A stretch of DNA of 38,903 nucleotides, from assembly GCA_003162245.1 (NCBI GenBank), contig PMMM01000258.1, forward strand, positions 50,875-89,777, written 5' to 3'. Below, piece by piece: positions 3,750 to 36,233 of the stretch. Positions within the stretch are counted from its first letter, which is position 1, and every line of letters begins with the position of its first letter. The DNA is from Phycisphaerales bacterium. Lineage in GTDB: Bacteria > Planctomycetota > Phycisphaerae > UBA1845 > Fen-1342. The translations under genes and the position numbers were made by a program. Below the pieces are notes generated by a model, which worked only from the letters and a program-made list of their open reading frames with translations, did no database searches and was not told where the DNA came from.

Positions 3750-4340
3750 TCAACGCCGGCGCAGCAACCCGATTAGCCCGCATCCGAGCATCGTCAGGGT
3801 GGCCGGCTCGGGGGTTTTTGTCGCTGAGCAGGTGAAAGCCGCAGTCCACGTCAAGTTCGGCGGCTCGCCGGCCTGATTCACCAGGGCGAAAGAAAACGAC
3901 TGGTTGCGGAGCTGCGACTCCGGCGGAATTCCGGGACCGCTGATCACGACCCCGTCCCGCGCCAGGAACTGCGTCCCCCCGAAGGTTATCAGATCCAGCG
4001 TGGCGGACGTGAAGGAAATGTGCAGCACCTCCACGGCGTTCGGATCCCGGAAGCTGATGTCGCCCGGCCCCAGCAGGCTCGGGAGGTTGTTCGGTGCTAT
4101 CACGGTAACCGGATTGACGAGTTGGAACGTCGCATTCTGGTACGTGTGGCCGGTGAACGGCATCACGAGGGTCAGCCCGGCCTCGGTCCACCCCCCGGTA
4201 AGGAGGTTGCCGCTCTGGGTGAACACCGGCGTATTGCCGTCGGACGGGTCCAGGAAAGTGCCAATCGTCGCAGCGTTCGCAGCGACTGTCGCTAACAGCA
4301 GGACGCCAAAAACCGAGAAACGCATCACACGAGCGCGCAT
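3750..4340 (-). CDS. PEP-CTERM sorting-domain surface protein
   Basis: 196 residues. I chose the ATG at 4340 because GGAGGAA lies just upstream and the protein then begins with a good signal peptide (RFSVFGVLLLATVAANAA); a longer frame to 4439 has no such support. The mature part is rich in Thr, Gly and beta-forming residues, as in secreted planctomycete proteins. The C-terminus has the tripartite PEP-CTERM signal: PEP, a hydrophobic stretch (ATLTMLGCGLIGLL), then RRR. Such proteins are exported and then cut and anchored by an exosortase; none is encoded in this window. Function of the mature domain is unknown. A sigma70-like promoter lies about 100 bases upstream. Confidence 0.9.
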   Translation of the reverse strand: MRARVMRFSVFGVLLLATVAANAATIGTFLDPSDGNTPVFTQSGNLLTGGWTEAGLTLVMPFTGHTYQNATFQLVNPVTVIAPNNLPSLLGPGDISFRDPNAVEVLHISFTSATLDLITFGGTQFLARDGVVISGPGIPPESQLRNQSFSFALVNQAGEPPNLTWTAAFTCSATKTPEPATLTMLGCGLIGLLRRR

Positions 4341-28742: not shown

Positions 28743-29987
28743 GTGCCCCTGATCGAAGTCCGAGCACTGACCAAGCTGTACCAGATGGGCGACTCCGTCG
28801 TCCGCGCCCTCGACGGCGTCGACCTCGACATCGAACGCGGCGAGTTCGTCGCCATCACCGGCGCCTCCGGCAGCGGCAAAAGCACCATCATGCACCTGCT
28901 CGGCTGCCTCGACCGCCCCACCGCAGGCGTCTATCGCCTCGACGGCCGCGACGTCAGCGGCCTCTCCGACAGCGAGCTCGCCGTCACACGCAACCTGCGC
29001 ATCGGCTTCGTCTTCCAGACCTTCAACCTCATTAACCGCGTGACCGCCTGGGAAAACGTGGGCGTCCCCCTCTTCTACGCCCGCAAGACCAACACCAAGG
29101 CGCCCGCCTTCCGCGCCCTCGAGCGCGTCGGCCTCGCCAGCCGCGCCGCCCACCAGCCCAACGAGCTCTCCGGCGGCGAACGCCAACGCGTCGCCATCGC
29201 CCGCGCCATCGTCAACGACCCCCTCCTCGTCCTCGCCGACGAGCCCACCGGAAACCTCGATACTCGCACCGGCGAGCAGATCATGGAGATCTTCCGCGGC
29301 CTCAACGAGCAGGGCGTCACCGTCATCATGGTCACCCACGAAGCGGAGATCGCTCAGCAGGCCCGCCGGATCGTCCAGATGCGCGACGGCAAGATCCTCT
29401 CCGACCGCCCGACCAAGGACATCGTCGCCGAACGCGGCCATGCCCCGCCGCGCAAGTTGCCGTCCGTCGAGCCCGCCGCGCCCCTCGACGCCGCGGCGCC
29501 CCCGCCTCTCGATGTCGCAGGCGCCCCGCCCGTCGAGGTCGCCGCCGCGCAACAGGAAACCCCCATCGCCGCGTCTGCCCTGCCTCCGCGCATCGTCCGC
29601 GGCGCCATGCCGGCCATCGTATGCGGACTGGTCGCAGCCGCGCTCTGGGTGCTGGGCTATGCTGCCCAGGTCGCACTCCAAAAGATCTACGGCTACAAGC
29701 CCGAGGCCATGGACCCCATGCACCCCAAGATGCCGCCGATGCCCGTGATCATCGGCAGCGGCATCGCCAGCCTGGGGATGCTGGTCGGGGTCGTGCTGGC
29801 CATCCTGGCGATCGTGTCTGGCTACGGCGCCCGCCGCCGGGCCCGGACTGAGATTGGCAACTGGCAAGGTCGCCGTCGCGCCCTCGTCGGCCTGATCCTC
29901 GGCTGGGTCGTCGTCGCGATCCCGATCATCGTCATCATCATCGCGGTGGTCAAGCTCGCCACCGGCGGCTTCGGCGGCGCGAAGTAG
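28743..29987 (+). CDS. ABC ATPase (MacB/LolD type) fused to a C-terminal three-helix membrane domain
   Basis: 414 residues, GTG start, weak ribosome site. The first 225 residues are a complete ABC ATPase of the MacB/LolD group: Walker A GASGSGKST (40-48), Q-loop region FVFQTFNLI, signature LSGGERQRVAIARA, Walker B LLVLADEPTGN, H-loop VTHEAE. Then comes an Ala/Pro-rich linker (about 237-290) and a C-terminal part with three predicted transmembrane helices (about 287-312, 332-356, 380-405) resembling DUF4190. MacB permease domains have four helices with a large periplasmic loop; that loop is absent. So the MacB-type permease appears to be missing or replaced. See finding. Confidence 0.88.
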   Translation: MPLIEVRALTKLYQMGDSVVRALDGVDLDIERGEFVAITGASGSGKSTIMHLLGCLDRPTAGVYRLDGRDVSGLSDSELAVTRNLRIGFVFQTFNLINRVTAWENVGVPLFYARKTNTKAPAFRALERVGLASRAAHQPNELSGGERQRVAIARAIVNDPLLVLADEPTGNLDTRTGEQIMEIFRGLNEQGVTVIMVTHEAEIAQQARRIVQMRDGKILSDRPTKDIVAERGHAPPRKLPSVEPAAPLDAAAPPPLDVAGAPPVEVAAAQQETPIAASALPPRIVRGAMPAIVCGLVAAALWVLGYAAQVALQKIYGYKPEAMDPMHPKMPPMPVIIGSGIASLGMLVGVVLAILAIVSGYGARRRARTEIGNWQGRRRALVGLILGWVVVAIPIIVIIIAVVKLATGGFGGAK

Positions 29988-30008
29988 CCGCGTCATCGTG
30001 TGATGTCG

Positions 30009-30030
30009 CGTCCGACCCCCGTGTCGGACG
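30009..30030. repeat. CCCCGT-loop hairpin after the ABC gene
   Basis: CGTCCGAC (30009-30016) pairs perfectly with GTCGGACG (30023-30030) around CCCCGT. It is in the 60-base gap between the ABC gene's stop and the sigma factor's ATG. Member of the hairpin family at 19340 and 30726. Confidence 0.75.
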
Positions 30031-30047
30031 TTGGATTCGGTGGGCCA

Positions 30048-30725
30048 ATGGACGAACAACAACGCACCGAACGGGTAGCGCGTGTGCTGGCCGGCGACGC
30101 CGACGCCCTGCAGCAACTCATCGTCCACTACCACCCCATCCTGCACCACGCGGTCGAAACCCACGTTGACGCTGCGCTCCGCAGCCGCATCGACCCCGAC
30201 GACGTGCTCCAACAAGCCTATGTCGCCGCCTTCCGCGCCCTGTCCGCCCCCCGTCAGAGCCCAAGCGGCAGCGACGGGCCGGCCCCCGATCCCCAACCCG
30301 CGCCGCACTTCGACTCGCCCGCCAGCTTCTACAAATGGCTCGAAACCATCGCCCTCAACCAGCTCCGCGACCTGGAGCGCGCCCTCCGGCGTCAAAAACG
30401 CGACGTGGCTCGCCAGGCGCGCGATGTGCCCAACCTGAGTGATTCCTGCCCGAACCTCCTGAACCGTCTCGCCGGCCGCGACAGCACCCCCAGCCGCCGT
30501 GTAGGCCGTGCGGAGGCCGTCGCCGCGCTCCTGTCATGCCTCGCACGCCTCAACGACGACCAGCGTGCCGTCGTCCGCCTGCGCTTCCTGGAAGACGTCC
30601 CGGTCGCCGAGATCGCCCAGCGCCTCGGCAAGACCGAGACCGCGGTCTACACCCTCTGCCACCGCGGCCTCAAGTCCCTCCGCGAGCGCATGGTCTCCAT
30701 CACGCGCTATCTCACCCACTTGTAG
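30048..30725 (+). CDS. ECF-type sigma-70 factor
   Basis: 225 residues from the ATG at 30048; a start at 30000 would place the hairpin repeat inside the gene and adds unlikely residues. Region sigma2 is seen as RSRIDPDDVLQQAYVAAFRAL and SFYKWLETIALNQLRDLERA; region sigma4 as LNDDQRAVVRLRFLEDVPVAEIAQRLGKTETAVY with a helix-turn-helix. A Ser/Pro-rich linker follows sigma2 (QSPSGSDGPAPDPQPAP), as in planctomycete ECF factors. It should redirect RNA polymerase; no anti-sigma gene is adjacent. The stop TAG (30723-30725) is within the following hairpin repeat. Confidence 0.9.
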   Translation: MDEQQRTERVARVLAGDADALQQLIVHYHPILHHAVETHVDAALRSRIDPDDVLQQAYVAAFRALSAPRQSPSGSDGPAPDPQPAPHFDSPASFYKWLETIALNQLRDLERALRRQKRDVARQARDVPNLSDSCPNLLNRLAGRDSTPSRRVGRAEAVAALLSCLARLNDDQRAVVRLRFLEDVPVAEIAQRLGKTETAVYTLCHRGLKSLRERMVSITRYLTHL

Positions 30726-30750
30726 CGTCGCCCCCCCGTGGGCGACGTAG
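30721..30750. repeat. CCCCGT-loop hairpin at the end of the sigma factor gene
   Basis: TGTAG (30721-30725, containing the sigma factor stop) is followed by CGTCGCCC (30726-30733), loop CCCCGT, and GGGCGACG (30740-30747), then TAG. The stem differs in sequence from the other copies but stays fully paired. The rest of 30751-30956 shows nothing I can support apart from the promoter entry. Confidence 0.75.
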
Positions 30751-30873
30751 GTCGGAGCCGGGCCAGCCTCAGCCTCGTCCCCGACCACCCCGTCGTGCGG
30801 AAACGCCGGCTCGAACCGGACCCGCGTCCCGGCCCCGCACGTCCAGATTCCGGCCCCGGTCGCCCGGCGACCC

Positions 30874-30895
30874 CGCCCGGCGGGCGCGGTATACT
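30874..30895 (+). promoter_or_regulatory. Promoter and possible operator of the toxin-antitoxin pair
   Basis: TATACT (30890-30895) is a good -10. Immediately before it is a 13-bp palindrome CGCCCGGCGGGCG (30874-30886) sitting where the -35/-10 spacer would be, as expected for an autoregulatory operator. No -35 match is seen. Confidence 0.4.
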
Positions 30896-30956
30896 GTCTA
30901 TCGAGAAACCGCGAGTTTGACCAGCGCCGGCGGCACCACCGCAAAGGAGGTGTGTC

Positions 30957-31193
30957 GTGCCCAACGCCGATCTTGTGCAGCGCATCACCGTCGATCCCAA
31001 CGTCTGCGGGGGCAAGCCGTGTGTCCGCAGCACGCGCATCTACATTGCCATCATCCTGGACGGCCTGGCCGAAGGGCTGAGCCCAGAACAAGTGATTGAC
31101 CATTACCCGCAACTAACGCTCGACGACATTCGGGCTGCCCTCGCGTATGCCGCCGCGCTGGCCCAGGAGAACACCTGGAAGCTGGCCGGATGA
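30957..31193 (+). CDS. DUF433 antitoxin-like protein
   Basis: 78 residues, GTG start behind the best ribosome site in the window (AAAGGAGGTG, 30943-30952). The DUF433 signature RITVDPNVCGGKPCVRSTRI is complete, followed by a small winged-helix-like region (LSPEQVIDHYPQLTLDDIRAAL). DUF433 proteins are typical partners of DUF5615 PIN-like toxins. It overlaps the next gene in ATGA. Confidence 0.92.
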   Translation: MPNADLVQRITVDPNVCGGKPCVRSTRIYIAIILDGLAEGLSPEQVIDHYPQLTLDDIRAALAYAAALAQENTWKLAG

Positions 31194-31546
31194 AGCTCAA
31201 GCTGGACGAGAACCTCTCGCGCTACCTCAAGGCGCCTCTGGCGGGGCTGAACCACGATGTTACGACGGCGGCGGACGAGGGCTTGCTCTCGCGGCCTGAC
31301 GCGGAGATCGCGGCCGCCGCAAAAGCAGAAGGGCGTATGCTCCTGACGCTCGACCTCGACTTCGCGAACGTGTTGGCGTACCCGCCCGGCTCTCACGCCG
31401 GCATAGTCCTGTTTCGCCCTGCCACCCTCGGTCCGTTGGAGGTCAACCGGTTCGTGGAGGCGTTCGTCGGCCGGCAGGATCTCGCCGCGCTCGTGGGTTG
31501 CCTGGCCATCGTCGAGCCGGCGCGCGTGCGCGTTCGTCGCCCGTAG
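31190..31546 (+). CDS. DUF5615 PIN-like toxin
   Basis: 118 residues; its ATG overlaps the preceding stop. It begins KLKLDENLSRYLKAPLAG with the conserved acidic Asp6/Glu7, and keeps the second acidic cluster TLDLDFANV (Asp residues) typical of DUF5615, a PIN-like nuclease fold. The family acts, by inference from VapC, as a toxin that cuts RNA, held by the DUF433 antitoxin. All key acidic positions I can see are intact, so it is probably active. Confidence 0.9.
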   Translation: MKLKLDENLSRYLKAPLAGLNHDVTTAADEGLLSRPDAEIAAAAKAEGRMLLTLDLDFANVLAYPPGSHAGIVLFRPATLGPLEVNRFVEAFVGRQDLAALVGCLAIVEPARVRVRRP

Positions 31547-31580
31547 CCGAATCCGCCCCGCCCAGCCGCCGTTTCCCGCC

Positions 31581-31673
31581 CTCCCTCCGTGCCTGCGTGT
31601 CTCCGTCCCTCCGTGCCTTCGTCCCTTTTTCTCTCAACTTTCCTGCCAAATCCCACCGCCGACGGCGTTCGTT
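31581..31673. repeat. Octad-repeat element, copy 1
   Basis: Six units with a period of eight at 31584-31631 (CCTCCGTG, CCTGCGTG, TCTCCGTC, CCTCCGTG, CCTTCGTC, CCTTTTTC), followed by a non-periodic tail beginning TCAACTTTCCTGCCAAA and ending near GACGGCGTTCGTTGG. A second copy is at 32424. The 238-base gap 31547-31784 contains this element and an imperfect hairpin (31689-31703). Confidence 0.8.
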
Positions 31674-31784
31674 GGCTTGAGCTGACAGCGAGACCACACG
31701 GGGTGGTTCCGGTCGGCGTTCCATGGTTCGTCCGCCGGAGGCGACGCCACCGGCGTCCCCACAGAGCAAAGCAAAGGAGAAACC

Positions 31785-32273
31785 ATGACTACCGTGAAAG
31801 GACCCCTGACGTGCGTTTTTCTGTGCCTCCTGGCCGCGGCGGCCCCCAGCGAGGCCGGCACGACCAAGGGCACTGGCGCCAAGTTCAACGACAGCGCCAC
31901 CGGCACCTTGCCTTCGGCCGTTAAGGGCGGTCAGTCCTACGATTGTCCGCTCACCGTCAGCACGCCGGGCCTGAACGGGTGGCCGGCGACCGTCGAGGTG
32001 AAGCTGAAGTCGAGGTGCTGGGCGGACCTCTGGGGGAACACGACGATTGCGACTCTCAATCGCGACGTGCAAATGAACACAACGAGCGTGACCTTCAACG
32101 CCACCGTTTATGTCAAGAAGGTCCAGGCCAAACTCGTTGGGACCGGGGATCTGTGGTGGGAAGTCAAGGTCACGCCGTGGAACATGTGCCCGCTCCCGTC
32201 GTGGATGAGGCCAAAGTCGATGGTGGTCGACACCTTCAGCACGAGCGTGGTCAAATTCACGGTCACCAAGTAG
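31785..32273 (+). CDS. Secreted protein of unknown function
   Basis: 162 residues; AAAGGAG precedes the ATG. A signal peptide (GPLTCVFLCLLAAAAPSEAG) is clear. The mature part is Thr/Lys/Val-rich and beta-forming, with three cysteines (DCPLTVS, SRCWADLW, WNMCPLPSW). No family is recognised. It lies between the two copies of the octad element and is followed by a hairpin. Confidence 0.8.
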   Translation: MTTVKGPLTCVFLCLLAAAAPSEAGTTKGTGAKFNDSATGTLPSAVKGGQSYDCPLTVSTPGLNGWPATVEVKLKSRCWADLWGNTTIATLNRDVQMNTTSVTFNATVYVKKVQAKLVGTGDLWWEVKVTPWNMCPLPSWMRPKSMVVDTFSTSVVKFTVTK

Positions 32274-32330
32274 AAACTGCTGGCGTGACGCGCTGGGTGG
32301 CCACCGTCACCAGAGCATACTACGGGCCGA

Positions 32331-32365
32331 CGAGCGGCGCCTCCGGGGACCGGGGGCGCCGCTCG
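32331..32365. terminator. Hairpin after the secreted-protein gene
   Basis: CGAGCGGCGCC (32331-32341) pairs perfectly with GGCGCCGCTCG (32355-32365) over 11 bp; loop 13 bases, no T tract. It lies 58 bases after the stop. Confidence 0.5.
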
Positions 32366-32423
32366 CCGTGCCAGCGACGAGGGGGCTTGCACCCCAATCT
32401 CGCTTCCCGGGGCCCCGCACTCC

Positions 32424-32516
32424 GCCCCTCCCTGCCTGCGTGCCTCGGTGCCTCCGTCCCTTCGTCCCTTTTTTCCCCAACTTTCCTGCCAAACCCCGCC
32501 GCGGACGGCGTTCGTG
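32424..32516. repeat. Octad-repeat element, copy 2
   Basis: Units at 32427-32474 (CCTCCCTG, CCTGCGTG, CCTCGGTG, CCTCCGTC, CCTTCGTC, CCTTTTTT) then the same tail as copy 1 (CAACTTTCCTGCCAAA ... GACGGCGTTCGTGG) with only a few differences. The 426-base gap 32274-32699 holds this, the hairpin before it and otherwise nothing I can name. Confidence 0.8.
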
Positions 32517-32699
32517 GGGTAGACGGTGGATGCAGCCCGGACGGTCCGGGGCGCATCGTGGGAATGGCGGCGAACGACCTCGAAAGAGTCTCGGCCCGGG
32601 GTTCGAGGGCGTCCGACCAAGCGTTGAGATGGAGCCAACGTCACAGCGGCCCTGGACGTTCCTGGGCCCGGCAGCAGGTGCGATGAAGGAGGAAGATCA

Positions 32700-33422
32700 A
32701 TGTTCAACACAACGAAGTGGAGTCATGCCATCTGCGCAGCAGCCCTTGTGGCCCTGTGCGCCGGTGCCGCTACAGCGGCAACGCTCTTCGAGGATCACTT
32801 CGACGGTCCGTTATCTCCCGAATGGGTCAGCGTCCTACCGAATCAGTGGGTGTCTGATGGGTGGCTGCATTGCCGCAAGCCGGTATGGGATCCTCCGCTC
32901 GATGCGGTAGCGGTCACTCACGACGGCGACCAATCGTGGACCGACTATGAGTTCTCCTTCATCGCGGATCCCGTGACGTCGGTCCAAATGGCGTTGGCCT
33001 ACATCCGAACGAACGGTTCAAGACCTCGCACCGGTGCGAGCGGCCTGCTGACGCTTGGCTACAGGCTAGATTTTCACGGAGACGATCAGAGTGGGTACCC
33101 GAACGCCCTGGTTCTCTATCGCGATGCAGGAGTGCTGGGAGAGGATCTAGTGCTCGCTGCTGCGGTTCCGGGCTGCATACCTGCCGCACCGTGGCATGTC
33201 GACATCCAGGCGCAGGGGCCGCGCATTCGGGTTGCCGTGAATGGCATATGGCTTCTCGACTGGACGGACCCCAACCCTATTCTGAGCGGCGGCGTCGGGC
33301 TCGGGAGCATCTGGACTGAGGAGGCCCGGTTTGACGACGTCCTCGTCCAGACCATTCCCGAACCCGGCGCAGCAACTCTACTTGCCCTGGGCGCGCTGAC
33401 GTTTCTTAGACGTCGAGGCTAA
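32700..33422 (+). CDS. PEP-CTERM surface protein with LamG-like domain
   Basis: 240 residues; GGAGG before the ATG. Signal peptide (HAICAAALVALCAGAATAA). The mature domain opens LFEDHFDGPLSPEWV and has GLLTLGYRLDF, WHVDIQAQGPRIRVAVNGIWLLDW and ARFDDVLVQ, the pattern of a concanavalin-like/DUF1080-type jelly roll that often binds sugars. The C-terminus IPEPGAATLLALGALTFLRRRG is a complete PEP-CTERM signal. Anchoring would need an exosortase, not present here. A gene remnant follows at once in another frame. Confidence 0.9.
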   Translation: MFNTTKWSHAICAAALVALCAGAATAATLFEDHFDGPLSPEWVSVLPNQWVSDGWLHCRKPVWDPPLDAVAVTHDGDQSWTDYEFSFIADPVTSVQMALAYIRTNGSRPRTGASGLLTLGYRLDFHGDDQSGYPNALVLYRDAGVLGEDLVLAAAVPGCIPAAPWHVDIQAQGPRIRVAVNGIWLLDWTDPNPILSGGVGLGSIWTEEARFDDVLVQTIPEPGAATLLALGALTFLRRRG

Positions 33423-33423
33423 G

Positions 33424-33663
33424 GACACCTCTGGCCAATGCGGCATACCCTCGCCGAACACGGACTTCGCGCCGGTCGCCGCAGGCGACAAGCACAGCCT
33501 CGACTTGAGGGTCTTCTACGGCAACCTGAACTGCGAGGGCATTGCCGGTTACGCCGACATCAGCCCGTTCATCGCCGCGCTCGGGTCCTGCGGCCCACCG
33601 AAAGCACTGGAAGCGCCGATCACGTATGCGTCCCCCGTCCCCCTCATGGACGGGGGACGCTGA
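33424..33663 (+). pseudogene. Remnant of an RCC1-like/dockerin-like secreted protein
   Basis: An open frame without a start runs to a TGA at 33661-33663 and translates to SGQCGIPSPNTDFAPVAAGD, HSLDLR, then YGNLNCEGIAGYADISPF and IAALG. The first part matches the QCNVPxPNxxFVAVAAGxxHSLGLK repeat of planctomycete RCC1-like proteins, the second the GDLNCDGxVxFxDINPFV dockerin-like end. The frame opens only at 33400 inside the PEP-CTERM gene, so just the tail of an ancestral gene is left; the calcium-binding residues are partly lost (GNLNCEG for GDLNCDG). Confidence 0.7.
33628..33660. terminator. 13-bp hairpin between convergent genes
   Basis: GCGTCCCCCGTCC (33628-33640) pairs perfectly with GGACGGGGGACGC (33648-33660), loop CCCTCAT. 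It is the last 33 bases before the TGA of the remnant and lies ten bases before the kinase gene's stop; it should end transcription from both sides. Confidence 0.6.
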
Positions 33664-33669
33664 TGCGCC

Positions 33670-36174
33670 CTACGGGGCCGCGTCGGGGAGGTACTCCCCC
33701 TCGCGGATGATGACGTGCCAGTGCTCGCTCCACCAGTCCTCGCTCGCGGGTTCGCCGGGGGCCCTCATCACGTTGGTTATGTTGAGAGACCGGTCCAGCT
33801 TCAGGTGTGCCCCCCCGTGTTTCCCCCGCGCACCCACCGGTCCACGATCCACCATCACGTTCAACCACGCACTTTCCGTACTTCGCTCTCCCTCAGCCAG
33901 TACGAAGATTGTGTCGATCGTCGCGGCGTCCTGAGGTTCGACTCTGTCGCGAACATCAGAACCCGGCCGGCGCCTCCCCTGGAGCTCGTCATGAGCCATG
34001 TCCAGGAAAGCGTACGCGTACGGTCTGGCCGGCGGCGCGTCGTCCCCAACGAGCCAATCCAACCGGCGCGTGCGCGGCGGCCCAAGCCCCTCCATCTTGG
34101 CCGCAGCGGGGTCCAGGATCACGAGCATGGGCACGTAGTCCCACTCCGTGCGCGGGGGGTCGTCGCCGTCTCGGCGGCTTTCGAAACCCGGGCGCTGGTC
34201 GTCGTCGAAGCCGTCCAGCTTGTTGTTCGTGCCCCAGGCGACGAGCGCGGGCCGCCCGTCGTCGAAGAAGTTGCCTATCACGCACACGTCGACGATGAGG
34301 CCCATGTGCCAGAACGTGGACCGGATGCCGCCGCTGGCCGCATCCACGACGGATATGCGGGCAGGATACTCACATGAGTTGGTGCGAGCTACCGCGACCA
34401 ACTCCGCCACGGGCTTGCCATCCAGGTCCTTTGCGACGACCCGGTCACAGAGCCAAGGGTCTTTTCGAACGCAGTTCGGCCAGAGCTCGTTCGGGTTCGG
34501 CGTCAACGAGCATCGCCAGCGCTCAGTGCGGTCGGCGTTAAACGCAACCAGGGCCACGTCGTTCTCGCCCAGCGGCTGCATGAGGCCCGCCACGAGCACC
34601 TTGTGGTCGCCCGTGCCATCCAGGTCGGCCAGCGTTGCCGCGCGGATTTCGCCCCTATAGTTGGGCAAGACCCAGTTCAATCGCTCCCAGTCCGCCCTGT
34701 TGCCGTAGCGACCTTCGAGCGCATACCTCGTTCGCCCCCCGTCCTTGTATTCGACCGTCCTGACCTCCGTGAGGCCCTCGCCGGCGCGCCCAATTCGGCT
34801 CAGCCACCACGCCCCGGCGCCCAGCGCGCCCACCAGGACCACGGCGAGCGCAACGCGCCGGAAACCTGGCTGCACCGTACGGGGCCGCCGTACGCGCGCA
34901 CCGGCCTCCAGCGCTTTGAGCGCTTCGCCCGCCGATGCCAGGCGCTCCTCCCGCCGCTTCGCCATCAGCCGCAGCGCCAAACTCGCGAGCACCGGATCGA
35001 TGCTCTTGTCGAACTTCCGTGGGTCGTGCGGCTCCTCGTTCAAAATCTGATGAATCGTCGCCGTCGGCGTGTCGCACCGGAACGGCGTCCGCCCCGTCAG
35101 CATCTCGTACAACACCACGCCCGCCGAATACAAATCGGTCCGCTCGTCAATGTCCGCCTCGCCCCGCGCTTGCTCGGGGCTCATATACTCCGGCGTCCCC
35201 AGCACCGACGCCGGCAGCGTGAGTTGCGTCTGCGACGACCGCATCCGCGCCAACCCAAAGTCGGCCAGCTTCACGAGCAGGCCATCAGCTCTCAGCTCTT
35301 GGCTCTCCGCCACGTCAGCGCCGCCGGACTCGTCCGGCTGAAGGCTGATGGCTGACGGCTGACGGCTCGCCTCCAGCAGAATGTTTGAGGACTTGATATC
35401 CCGATGGATCAACCCCGCCCGATGCGCCGCATCCAGCCCCGACAGTAGCTCGCGGAAGATGTGCCGAATCAGCGCTGTCGGAAGGTGCGAAGGCAGGGAC
35501 GCGCGCTGGGAAGCGCGGTCCGGCGTCTCCGTGGGCGCCGCCCGGGACGCGCCGGCTGAGAGCTGCGAGCTGCGAGCTGGCAGTTCTCGCATTCCGGCTG
35601 ATGGCTGATAGCTGAAAGCTGACTGCTCTCGAACCACCTCCGCCAAACTCGGCCCATCCACGTACTCCATCGCAATGAACCGCACGCCGCACTCGTGGCC
35701 GACGCCGTAGACGGTAACGATGTTCGGATGCTGCAACGCCGCCGCCGTCTTCGCCTCCCTTTCGAACCGCACCAGCGCCGCCTCGTCCTCCGCCAGCTCC
35801 GGCCGCAAGATCTTCAGCGCGACGACGCGGTCCAGGCTCTCATCGTGTGCCTTCAGCACAATCCCCATCCCGCCACGCCCCACAAAGTCGAGCACCTTGT
35901 ACGGCCCCAGCTCCGCCCGGTACCGCGGGTCAGCGCTCGCAGCGAGCATCCCCTGTGCGACCAGCTCCTCGATCTTGCTCGCCGCCGGTCGCAGGTCCCG
36001 CAGCAACTCGAGGTGCTCCCGTAATTCGTCCGCTATGTCCGCGTGCTGCGCGAGCAGCGCAGATTCGCTGACGCGCTCCCCGCGCGCCCGCCGACTCACG
36101 AAGTCGTCAACGATCCGCCCGATGCGGGCGTCGCGCTCCTCGTCATATCGCGTTAGCGTGTTGTCGCCCGCCAT
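33670..36174 (-). CDS. Transmembrane Ser/Thr protein kinase with FG-GAP-like outer domain
   Basis: 834 residues from the ATG at 36174 (a TTG at 36192 has no better support). N-terminal helical region, then a Hanks-type kinase: glycine loop VGRGGMGIV (98-106), Lys121 (ALKIL), HRDIKSSN (257-264), DFG (305-307), GTPEYMSPEQ (326-335). Transmembrane helix about 440-458. Outside: FG-GAP/VCBS-like calcium-loop repeats (ATLADLDGTGDHKVLVAG, AKDLDGKPVAELVAVA, NFFDDGRPALVAWG). Two non-conserved insertions interrupt the kinase: about 183-230 and 269-297, both made from heptad-repeat DNA. Catalytic residues are kept, so activity is likely. Planctomycete kinases of this type are linked to surface sensing; the ECF sigma factor at 30048 is a possible partner but no evidence ties them. 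Confidence 0.92.
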   Translation of the reverse strand: MAGDNTLTRYDEERDARIGRIVDDFVSRRARGERVSESALLAQHADIADELREHLELLRDLRPAASKIEELVAQGMLAASADPRYRAELGPYKVLDFVGRGGMGIVLKAHDESLDRVVALKILRPELAEDEAALVRFEREAKTAAALQHPNIVTVYGVGHECGVRFIAMEYVDGPSLAEVVREQSAFSYQPSAGMRELPARSSQLSAGASRAAPTETPDRASQRASLPSHLPTALIRHIFRELLSGLDAAHRAGLIHRDIKSSNILLEASRQPSAISLQPDESGGADVAESQELRADGLLVKLADFGLARMRSSQTQLTLPASVLGTPEYMSPEQARGEADIDERTDLYSAGVVLYEMLTGRTPFRCDTPTATIHQILNEEPHDPRKFDKSIDPVLASLALRLMAKRREERLASAGEALKALEAGARVRRPRTVQPGFRRVALAVVLVGALGAGAWWLSRIGRAGEGLTEVRTVEYKDGGRTRYALEGRYGNRADWERLNWVLPNYRGEIRAATLADLDGTGDHKVLVAGLMQPLGENDVALVAFNADRTERWRCSLTPNPNELWPNCVRKDPWLCDRVVAKDLDGKPVAELVAVARTNSCEYPARISVVDAASGGIRSTFWHMGLIVDVCVIGNFFDDGRPALVAWGTNNKLDGFDDDQRPGFESRRDGDDPPRTEWDYVPMLVILDPAAAKMEGLGPPRTRRLDWLVGDDAPPARPYAYAFLDMAHDELQGRRRPGSDVRDRVEPQDAATIDTIFVLAEGERSTESAWLNVMVDRGPVGARGKHGGAHLKLDRSLNITNVMRAPGEPASEDWWSEHWHVIIREGEYLPDAAP
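35284..35370. repeat. TCAGC heptads inside the kinase gene, between HRD and DFG
   Basis: On the coding strand units such as CGTCAGC, CGTCAGC, CATCAGC, CTTCAGC follow with a period of seven, and a further AGCTCTCAGCTC-like part lies at the other end. It encodes the insertion at about residues 269-297. Confidence 0.75.
35552..35632. repeat. TCAGC heptads inside the kinase gene, after the hinge
   Basis: On the coding strand TCAGCTT, TCAGCTA, TCAGCCA, TCAGCCG run in period seven, followed by CTCGCAG, CTCGCAG, CTCTCAG. Three heptads equal seven codons, giving the repeated peptide SAxSxQP. Encodes part of the insertion at about residues 183-230. Confidence 0.8.
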
Positions 36175-36233
36175 AACTCGGAGCCGTCCCAAAAGCAGAA
36201 CTGATCGAGGCTAACCCCCATCATACCCGCTCG

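Follow-up and report, generated by a model that had tools for sequence, protein, structure and literature searches.

The intervening sequence (IVS) of the Coxiella burnetii 23S rRNA gene carries an S23p/IVP gene, with tandem heptamers (GACAGAT) ahead of it, and has been called a selfish element of unproven mobility (PMC4990558). Heptads of another kind, the TAACTGA direct repeats, form dispersed intergenic arrays in Beggiatoaceae, Cyanobacteria and Bacteroidetes (MacGregor 2015, PMC4679880). Read in one orientation this repeat yields stops in every frame, and open reading frames tolerate it in the other; no transfer mechanism was found and translational regulation was favoured (PMC4679880).

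The window analysed here, a stretch of 38,903 nt from a Phycisphaerales bacterium (PMMM01000258.1, positions 50,875-89,777; genome coded G000), holds a protein kinase gene with TCAGCNN heptads in it, and arrays of this and other units also flank genes of the PF05635 family. As in the 23S rRNA IVS, the protein belongs to PF05635 and the terminal inverted repeats fold into a stem, opposed arms being present at 73 of 89 loci. The known IVSs, however, lie inside 23S rRNA genes, whereas the present elements are found between or within protein genes, end in opposed degenerate 7/8-mer arrays and commonly occur as gene-less copies. At the loci inspected the flanking genes were protein-coding, and Rfam gave no match around the kinase inserts. 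Since they are not inside 23S rRNA, the elements were not filed as intervening sequences; the two may work alike.

The reverse complement of TAACTGA, TCAGTTA, is a TCAGTNN unit such as we found at PF05635 loci in genomes G326, G425 and G045. The TAACTGA study reported no link to PF05635, however, and the terms '23S', 'S23' and 'four helix' are absent from the text of that paper (PMC4679880). In being small gene-less inverted-repeat elements dispersed beside a single-gene partner, the elements resemble the REPIN/REP-RAYT systems (PMC3116915), but their ends are tandem degenerate heptads, and TCAGCNN arrays have no Y1 HUH transposase associated with them. The genome has three weak Y1_Tnp matches, on contigs C204, C4 and C59, none of which carries a three-unit array, and on these grounds both membership of the REP/RAYT (REPIN) group and a Y1/REP transposase as the source of the arrays were rejected. 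REP elements themselves are palindromes with a GTAG tag. There is, in addition, a distant sequence similarity (NF033474, E=2.6e-5) to Avd of the diversity-generating retroelements, and a fold relationship between 2GSC and 4DWL has been stated (PMC10053308). The genome yielded no reverse transcriptase (PF00078), however, which led us to reject Avd-like mobility, and no template/variable repeat was seen.

The kinase gene and its inserts

The gene (33670-36174, minus strand) specifies a Ser/Thr protein kinase with a PknB-like catalytic domain and a C-terminal extension. The open reading frame spans 33670-36192 on the minus strand, with the start probably at the ATG at 36174, and is open across both inserts. 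It matches Pfam Pkinase (E=3e-44), and the glycine loop, VALK, HRDIKSSN and DFG are all intact, which, with an alignment to PknB structures, places the product among the PknB-like Ser/Thr kinases. The PASTA equivalog cut-off was missed (283 vs 450 bits), and the protein was therefore left outside the Stk1/PknB PASTA kinases. Between the sigma factor gene and the kinase lies a small ORF (31190-31546) with a DUF5615/PIN-like match, possibly half of a toxin-antitoxin pair.

Alignment to the PknB structures revealed two expanded segments: query residues 191 to 246, from the hinge/alpha-D side to alpha-E, have 54 residues vs 10 in PknB, and residues 276 to 307, from the catalytic loop to DFG, have 30 vs 2. 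Exact two-unit matches to TCAGCNNTCAGC number seven in the window, all inside 35285-35622, compared with an average of 0.05 in shuffles. Insert 1 (residues 191-236; 35485-35622, minus strand) occupies the hinge/alpha-D to alpha-E loop with 46 aa vs 3 in the paralogue. It comprises a TCAGCNN array of four exact units (TCAGCTTTCAGCTATCAGCCATCAGC; 35597-35622, minus strand), a second, degenerate array running in the same direction (CCAGCTCGCAGCTCGCAGCTCTCAGC; 35555-35580, minus strand), and a remainder of some 70 nt in which there are no repeats. The segment between the two inserts, containing alpha-E and the catalytic-loop motif HRDIKSSNILL (35365-35484, minus strand), is conserved and nearly repeat-free.

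Insert 2 (residues 277-306; 35275-35364, minus strand) is laid out as a TCAGCNN array (35337-35369, minus strand; four exact units at 35337-35362 and one degenerate unit), followed directly by a perfect hairpin core, CCGGAC-GA-GTCCGG on the coding strand (35324-35337), and by an inverted arm of two opposite-direction heptads, TCAGCTCTCAGC on the plus strand (35285-35296). As a single strand it is predicted to form one long hairpin (z -3.7) in which the inverted arm pairs with the sense array. When its DNA was compared with the rest of the genome, the heptad part alone had matches elsewhere, and the core is therefore no conserved repeat; no target-site duplication was legible at this insert. 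Its inverted ends are TCAGCNN arms like those of a gene-bearing element on contig C161 of the same genome, a MITE-like arrangement, and to judge from its sequence insert 2 looks like a gene-less copy of a PF05635 element.

An earlier note on this DNA had described TCAGCNN heptads in two kinase loops, with the reading frame kept and the catalytic motifs spared, and the match counts, the Pkinase score and the PknB alignment bear this out. Its view that repeat DNA had entered two surface loops in frame agrees with the paralogue (contig C6) and several homologues, which have 3 residues at loop 1. The loops were correctly recognized, but the residues given for them, 183-230 and 269-297, become 191-236 and 277-306 in P0001 numbering, and the inserts are heptads only in part, the first containing non-repeat DNA and the second a hairpin and inverted heptads. 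The proposal that repeats enter a gene as multiples of 21 bases finds no support, since the lengths added relative to PknB, 84 nt for insert 2 and about 129-132 nt for insert 1, are not both such multiples; exact 21-bp (three-heptad) insertions were rejected as a frame rule because lengths and cores vary. The palindromic array-hairpin-array form of insert 2, the different 7/8-bp arrays at the same loops elsewhere, and the arrays as PF05635-linked element ends had gone unnoticed.

Arrays in related kinases and across genomes

The alignment of homologues proposed in the earlier note revealed kinases without inserts or with different ones. Among 15 related kinases, loop lengths were 3-93 aa at loop 1 and 3-85 aa at loop 2; with lengths varying so widely, inserts of equal length and unrelated sequence, which the note had named as evidence against its reading, were not seen. 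The syntenic kinase of G001, from the same genus, contains TCAGC heptads in loop 1 and GGTTCNN heptads in loop 2, the neighbouring ABC and sigma genes being 88% and 86% identical, respectively. When L328 (G001:C260) is set against window positions 28743-36174, the orthologous kinase itself shows about 50% identity, compared with 86-88% for these neighbours, and thus appears to be unusually fast-evolving. The hinge loop of the G007 homologue also holds TCAGC heptads. Other units are present as well: CAATCNN arrays with opposed arms in the G008 kinase, GTGGGAAC octads with opposed arms in that of G007, and octads in that of G011. CAATCNN is itself dispersed, with 114 four-unit matches in G008, 126 in G007 and 0 in G000. 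In the G015 kinases (L084, L082), hinge loop 1 carries a non-heptad tandem repeat, NPKRQRGANVAAG...

Twenty loops in this set were long enough for a periodicity test. A period of 7 or 8 was detected in 15 of them (period 7 in 11, period 8 in 6, both in two) vs 0 of 351 control segments of the same length from the same genes, from which we conclude that insertion recurs at the same loops. None of the 20 had a period of 4-6 or 9-11, and opposed arms were found in five, vs 2 of the 351 controls.

A genome search for TCAGC heptads, also proposed in the earlier note, located about 26 dispersed array sites. There are 45 exact three-unit and 19 four-unit TCAGCNN matches genome-wide and 0 in a reversed-pattern control; of the 26 sites catalogued from retrieved stretches of the genome, 24 are apparently non-coding by codon-usage score and the remaining two are those of this kinase. 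Most of the arrays in this genome are single, without a partner arm, and their link to the full element rests on the shared unit. Several solo arrays (L004, L014, L045) are followed by a GCCGAC/GTCGGC hairpin, which suggests that array plus hairpin may be a usual solo form. An array just ahead of one gene start is common to G000:C151 (L032) and G001:C266 (L327, about 4771); the TCAGC core is conserved between them, the NN letters and the unit number differ, and in G001:C266 an extra TACTCGC heptad array adjoins the shared one.

Four-unit arrays were found in 25 of 61 genomes (this one and its relatives), with 1 to 389 matches each, and the TCAGCNN pattern is also present in many phyla. G001 has 12 four-unit TCAGC matches, yet its sole PF05635 gene bears another unit. 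No PF05635-like gene was present at any of 117 array loci, mostly of about 8 kb, sampled at random from other genomes. Most arrays are thus solo, a result to be expected only where full elements are far fewer than solo arrays.

PF05635 genes between opposed arrays

The sole PF05635 gene of the genome (23S_rRNA_IVP, four-helix bundle) is located at 3922-4236 of contig C161 and scores 126 bits against PF05635 (cut-off 33.8) and 117 bits against TIGR02436 (cut-off 24). It is flanked by opposed TCAGCNN arrays at 3830 and 4743; in G007, G045 and G014 a PF05635 gene likewise lies between opposed arrays. We know of no nuclease activity for PF05635 proteins.

The association was assessed at 89 PF05635 loci, for whose choice the protein score counted and the flanks did not: 30 order-relative loci (from PF05635 matches in 26 order-relatives), 29 phylum-wide loci (from a search with a profile built from array-bracketed members) and 30 cross-phylum loci. 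Period-7/8 arrays were present on both flanks at 26 of 30, 20 of 29 and 24 of 30, respectively, or 70 of 89 in total, the cross-phylum genomes and part of the order-relative set having been selected for carrying TCAGC arrays. With TCAGC-type loci omitted, the figures were 23/26, 15/23 and 14/19. Far-flank pairs gave 4 of 81, and lags of 5, 6, 9, 10 and 11 gave 0 of 89. The opposed, complementary arms noted above (73 of 89 within a locus) compare with 15 of 267 between mismatched loci. In nearly every case the array period is equal on both sides of the gene, and in one group of PF05635 genes (L255, L257, L259, L224) the bracketing arrays are 8-bp, not 7-bp. The array unit follows the relatedness of the PF05635 proteins (Mantel r=0.54, 0/2000 permutations), a correlation which suggests, and does not prove, that the protein recognises the array. 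In the literature covered, which comprised open-licence and not subscription papers, no link between PF05635 and heptad arrays was found, and as far as these papers go the association is apparently unreported.

Probable mobility and a proposed origin of the inserts

A Trichormus/Scytonema plasmid element of about 428 bp is missing from plasmids whose surrounding DNA is 98% identical. Without the element the site is AAAGTAATTAACAAATA; with it, the left side is GTAATAAA and the right side GTAATTAA, giving an imperfect 8-bp duplication, GTAATWAA; this was the only one of the filled/empty pairs examined with a legible target duplication. At this plasmid site Brasilonema carries an array-hairpin-array that lacks the gene. 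Elements on cyanobacterial plasmids split the conserved neighbours cas6/cas4 and nrdB/nrdA, and on Nostoc plasmids two different elements occupy two gaps, with no legible target duplications, in one gene cluster that is unbroken elsewhere. On a Pseudanabaena plasmid (L301; NZ_CP112875.1 44280-48591) the gap between cas6 and cas4 in a type I-D CRISPR operon is occupied by a PF05635 element whose arrays are of the TTAGCNN/GCTAANN type; the related plasmid ABRG53e is without it and has an unrelated 7-bp array (ATTACGA) in the same gap.

What can be read from the sequences, then, is arrays, their dispersal, inverted ends at PF05635 genes, filled and empty sites, a gene-less copy and recurrent loop arrays. 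Together, arrays and PF05635 gene suggest a family of small mobile elements, widespread and to all appearance not yet described, and both kinase inserts are probably in-frame gene-less copies or remnants of such a dispersed family, with its PF05635 gene between inverted arrays.

Growth in place, by replication slippage of 7-bp units in low-complexity linker loops with no mobile element involved, would account for the tandem structure, the variable unit number and the drift of NN letters between the orthologous arrays of G000:C151 and G001:C266. It predicts, however, that the loop units should be absent from the rest of the genome, and TCAGCNN and CAATCNN are both dispersed; opposed arms exist within loops, loop 2 of the same-genus syntenic kinase is built on another unit (GGTTCNN), and units of 7 or 8 bp, not being multiples of 3, speak within coding DNA for arrays that were inserted ready-made and against slippage under frame selection. 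We regard such growth as very improbable. That the loops are functional, selected features of the kinase, for example docking or regulatory segments, also strikes us as quite unlikely. The return of insertions to precisely these two loops, the TCAGC heptads in the hinge loops of the same-genus orthologue and the G007 homologue, and the intact remainder of the kinase would fit selection, but the inserts vary in sequence, unit and length (3-93 aa), several homologues have none, and tolerance fits better.

The PF05635 gene might, on the other hand, be a passenger, with arrays and hairpins spread by a Y1/REP-type transposase or by replication and recombination. REPINs provide a precedent for hairpin pairs mobilised in trans (PMC3116915), gene-bearing arrays are a tiny minority beside gene-less and solo ones, and the weak Y1_Tnp matches could be cited in favour; yet no Y1-type gene shares a contig with a three-unit array. 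The unit also tracks protein relatedness, and 70 of 89 loci picked without regard to their flanks are doubly array-flanked, so the association of PF05635 with the arrays is specific. A passenger role has, in our judgement, a small but real chance of being correct.

If the inserts derive from mobile elements, a full-length element would consist of a degenerate-heptad array (here TCAGCNN), then a PF05635 gene some 105-150 codons long, then that array again in reverse. Copies would insert into DNA, most of them landing between genes, and those within genes would survive only where a surface loop is tolerant, the total length can be divided by 3 and TCAGCNN lies on the coding strand. The four-helix-bundle protein would most likely recognise its own array, as DNA or as an RNA hairpin, a step suggested by the correlation of unit with protein, and take part in copying or insertion with host enzymes. 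We lean somewhat towards the broader view that PF05635 genes are the coding part of phylum-spanning mobile elements whose ends the protein recognises, and that gene loss has given rise to countless heptad arrays, repeatedly building protein surface loops.

TCAGCNN is stop-free in all three frames whatever the NN, hence its tolerance in a gene; three GCTGANN units place a stop in all three. The kinase arrays are all TCAGC-sense, the sole inverted arm being two units long with its stop out of frame. Since survival needs only a total length that is a multiple of 3 and a stop-free array direction, no 21-base rule is needed. The compared kinases are in frame across the loops, which suggests that the inserts are most likely translated rather than excised from RNA as 23S rRNA IVSs are by RNase III, and the resulting peptide is most likely tolerated, not selected.

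If true, this explanation would join the heptamer arrays that occur unexplained in many bacterial genomes, the decades-old question of 23S rRNA IVS mobility and the function of a common four-helix-bundle family. It would clearly exemplify, in bacteria, how mobile DNA forms protein loops again and again, and a simple rule, the lack of stop codons in every frame of one strand of the unit, would predict the in-gene survivors and would be testable in any PF05635-rich genome.
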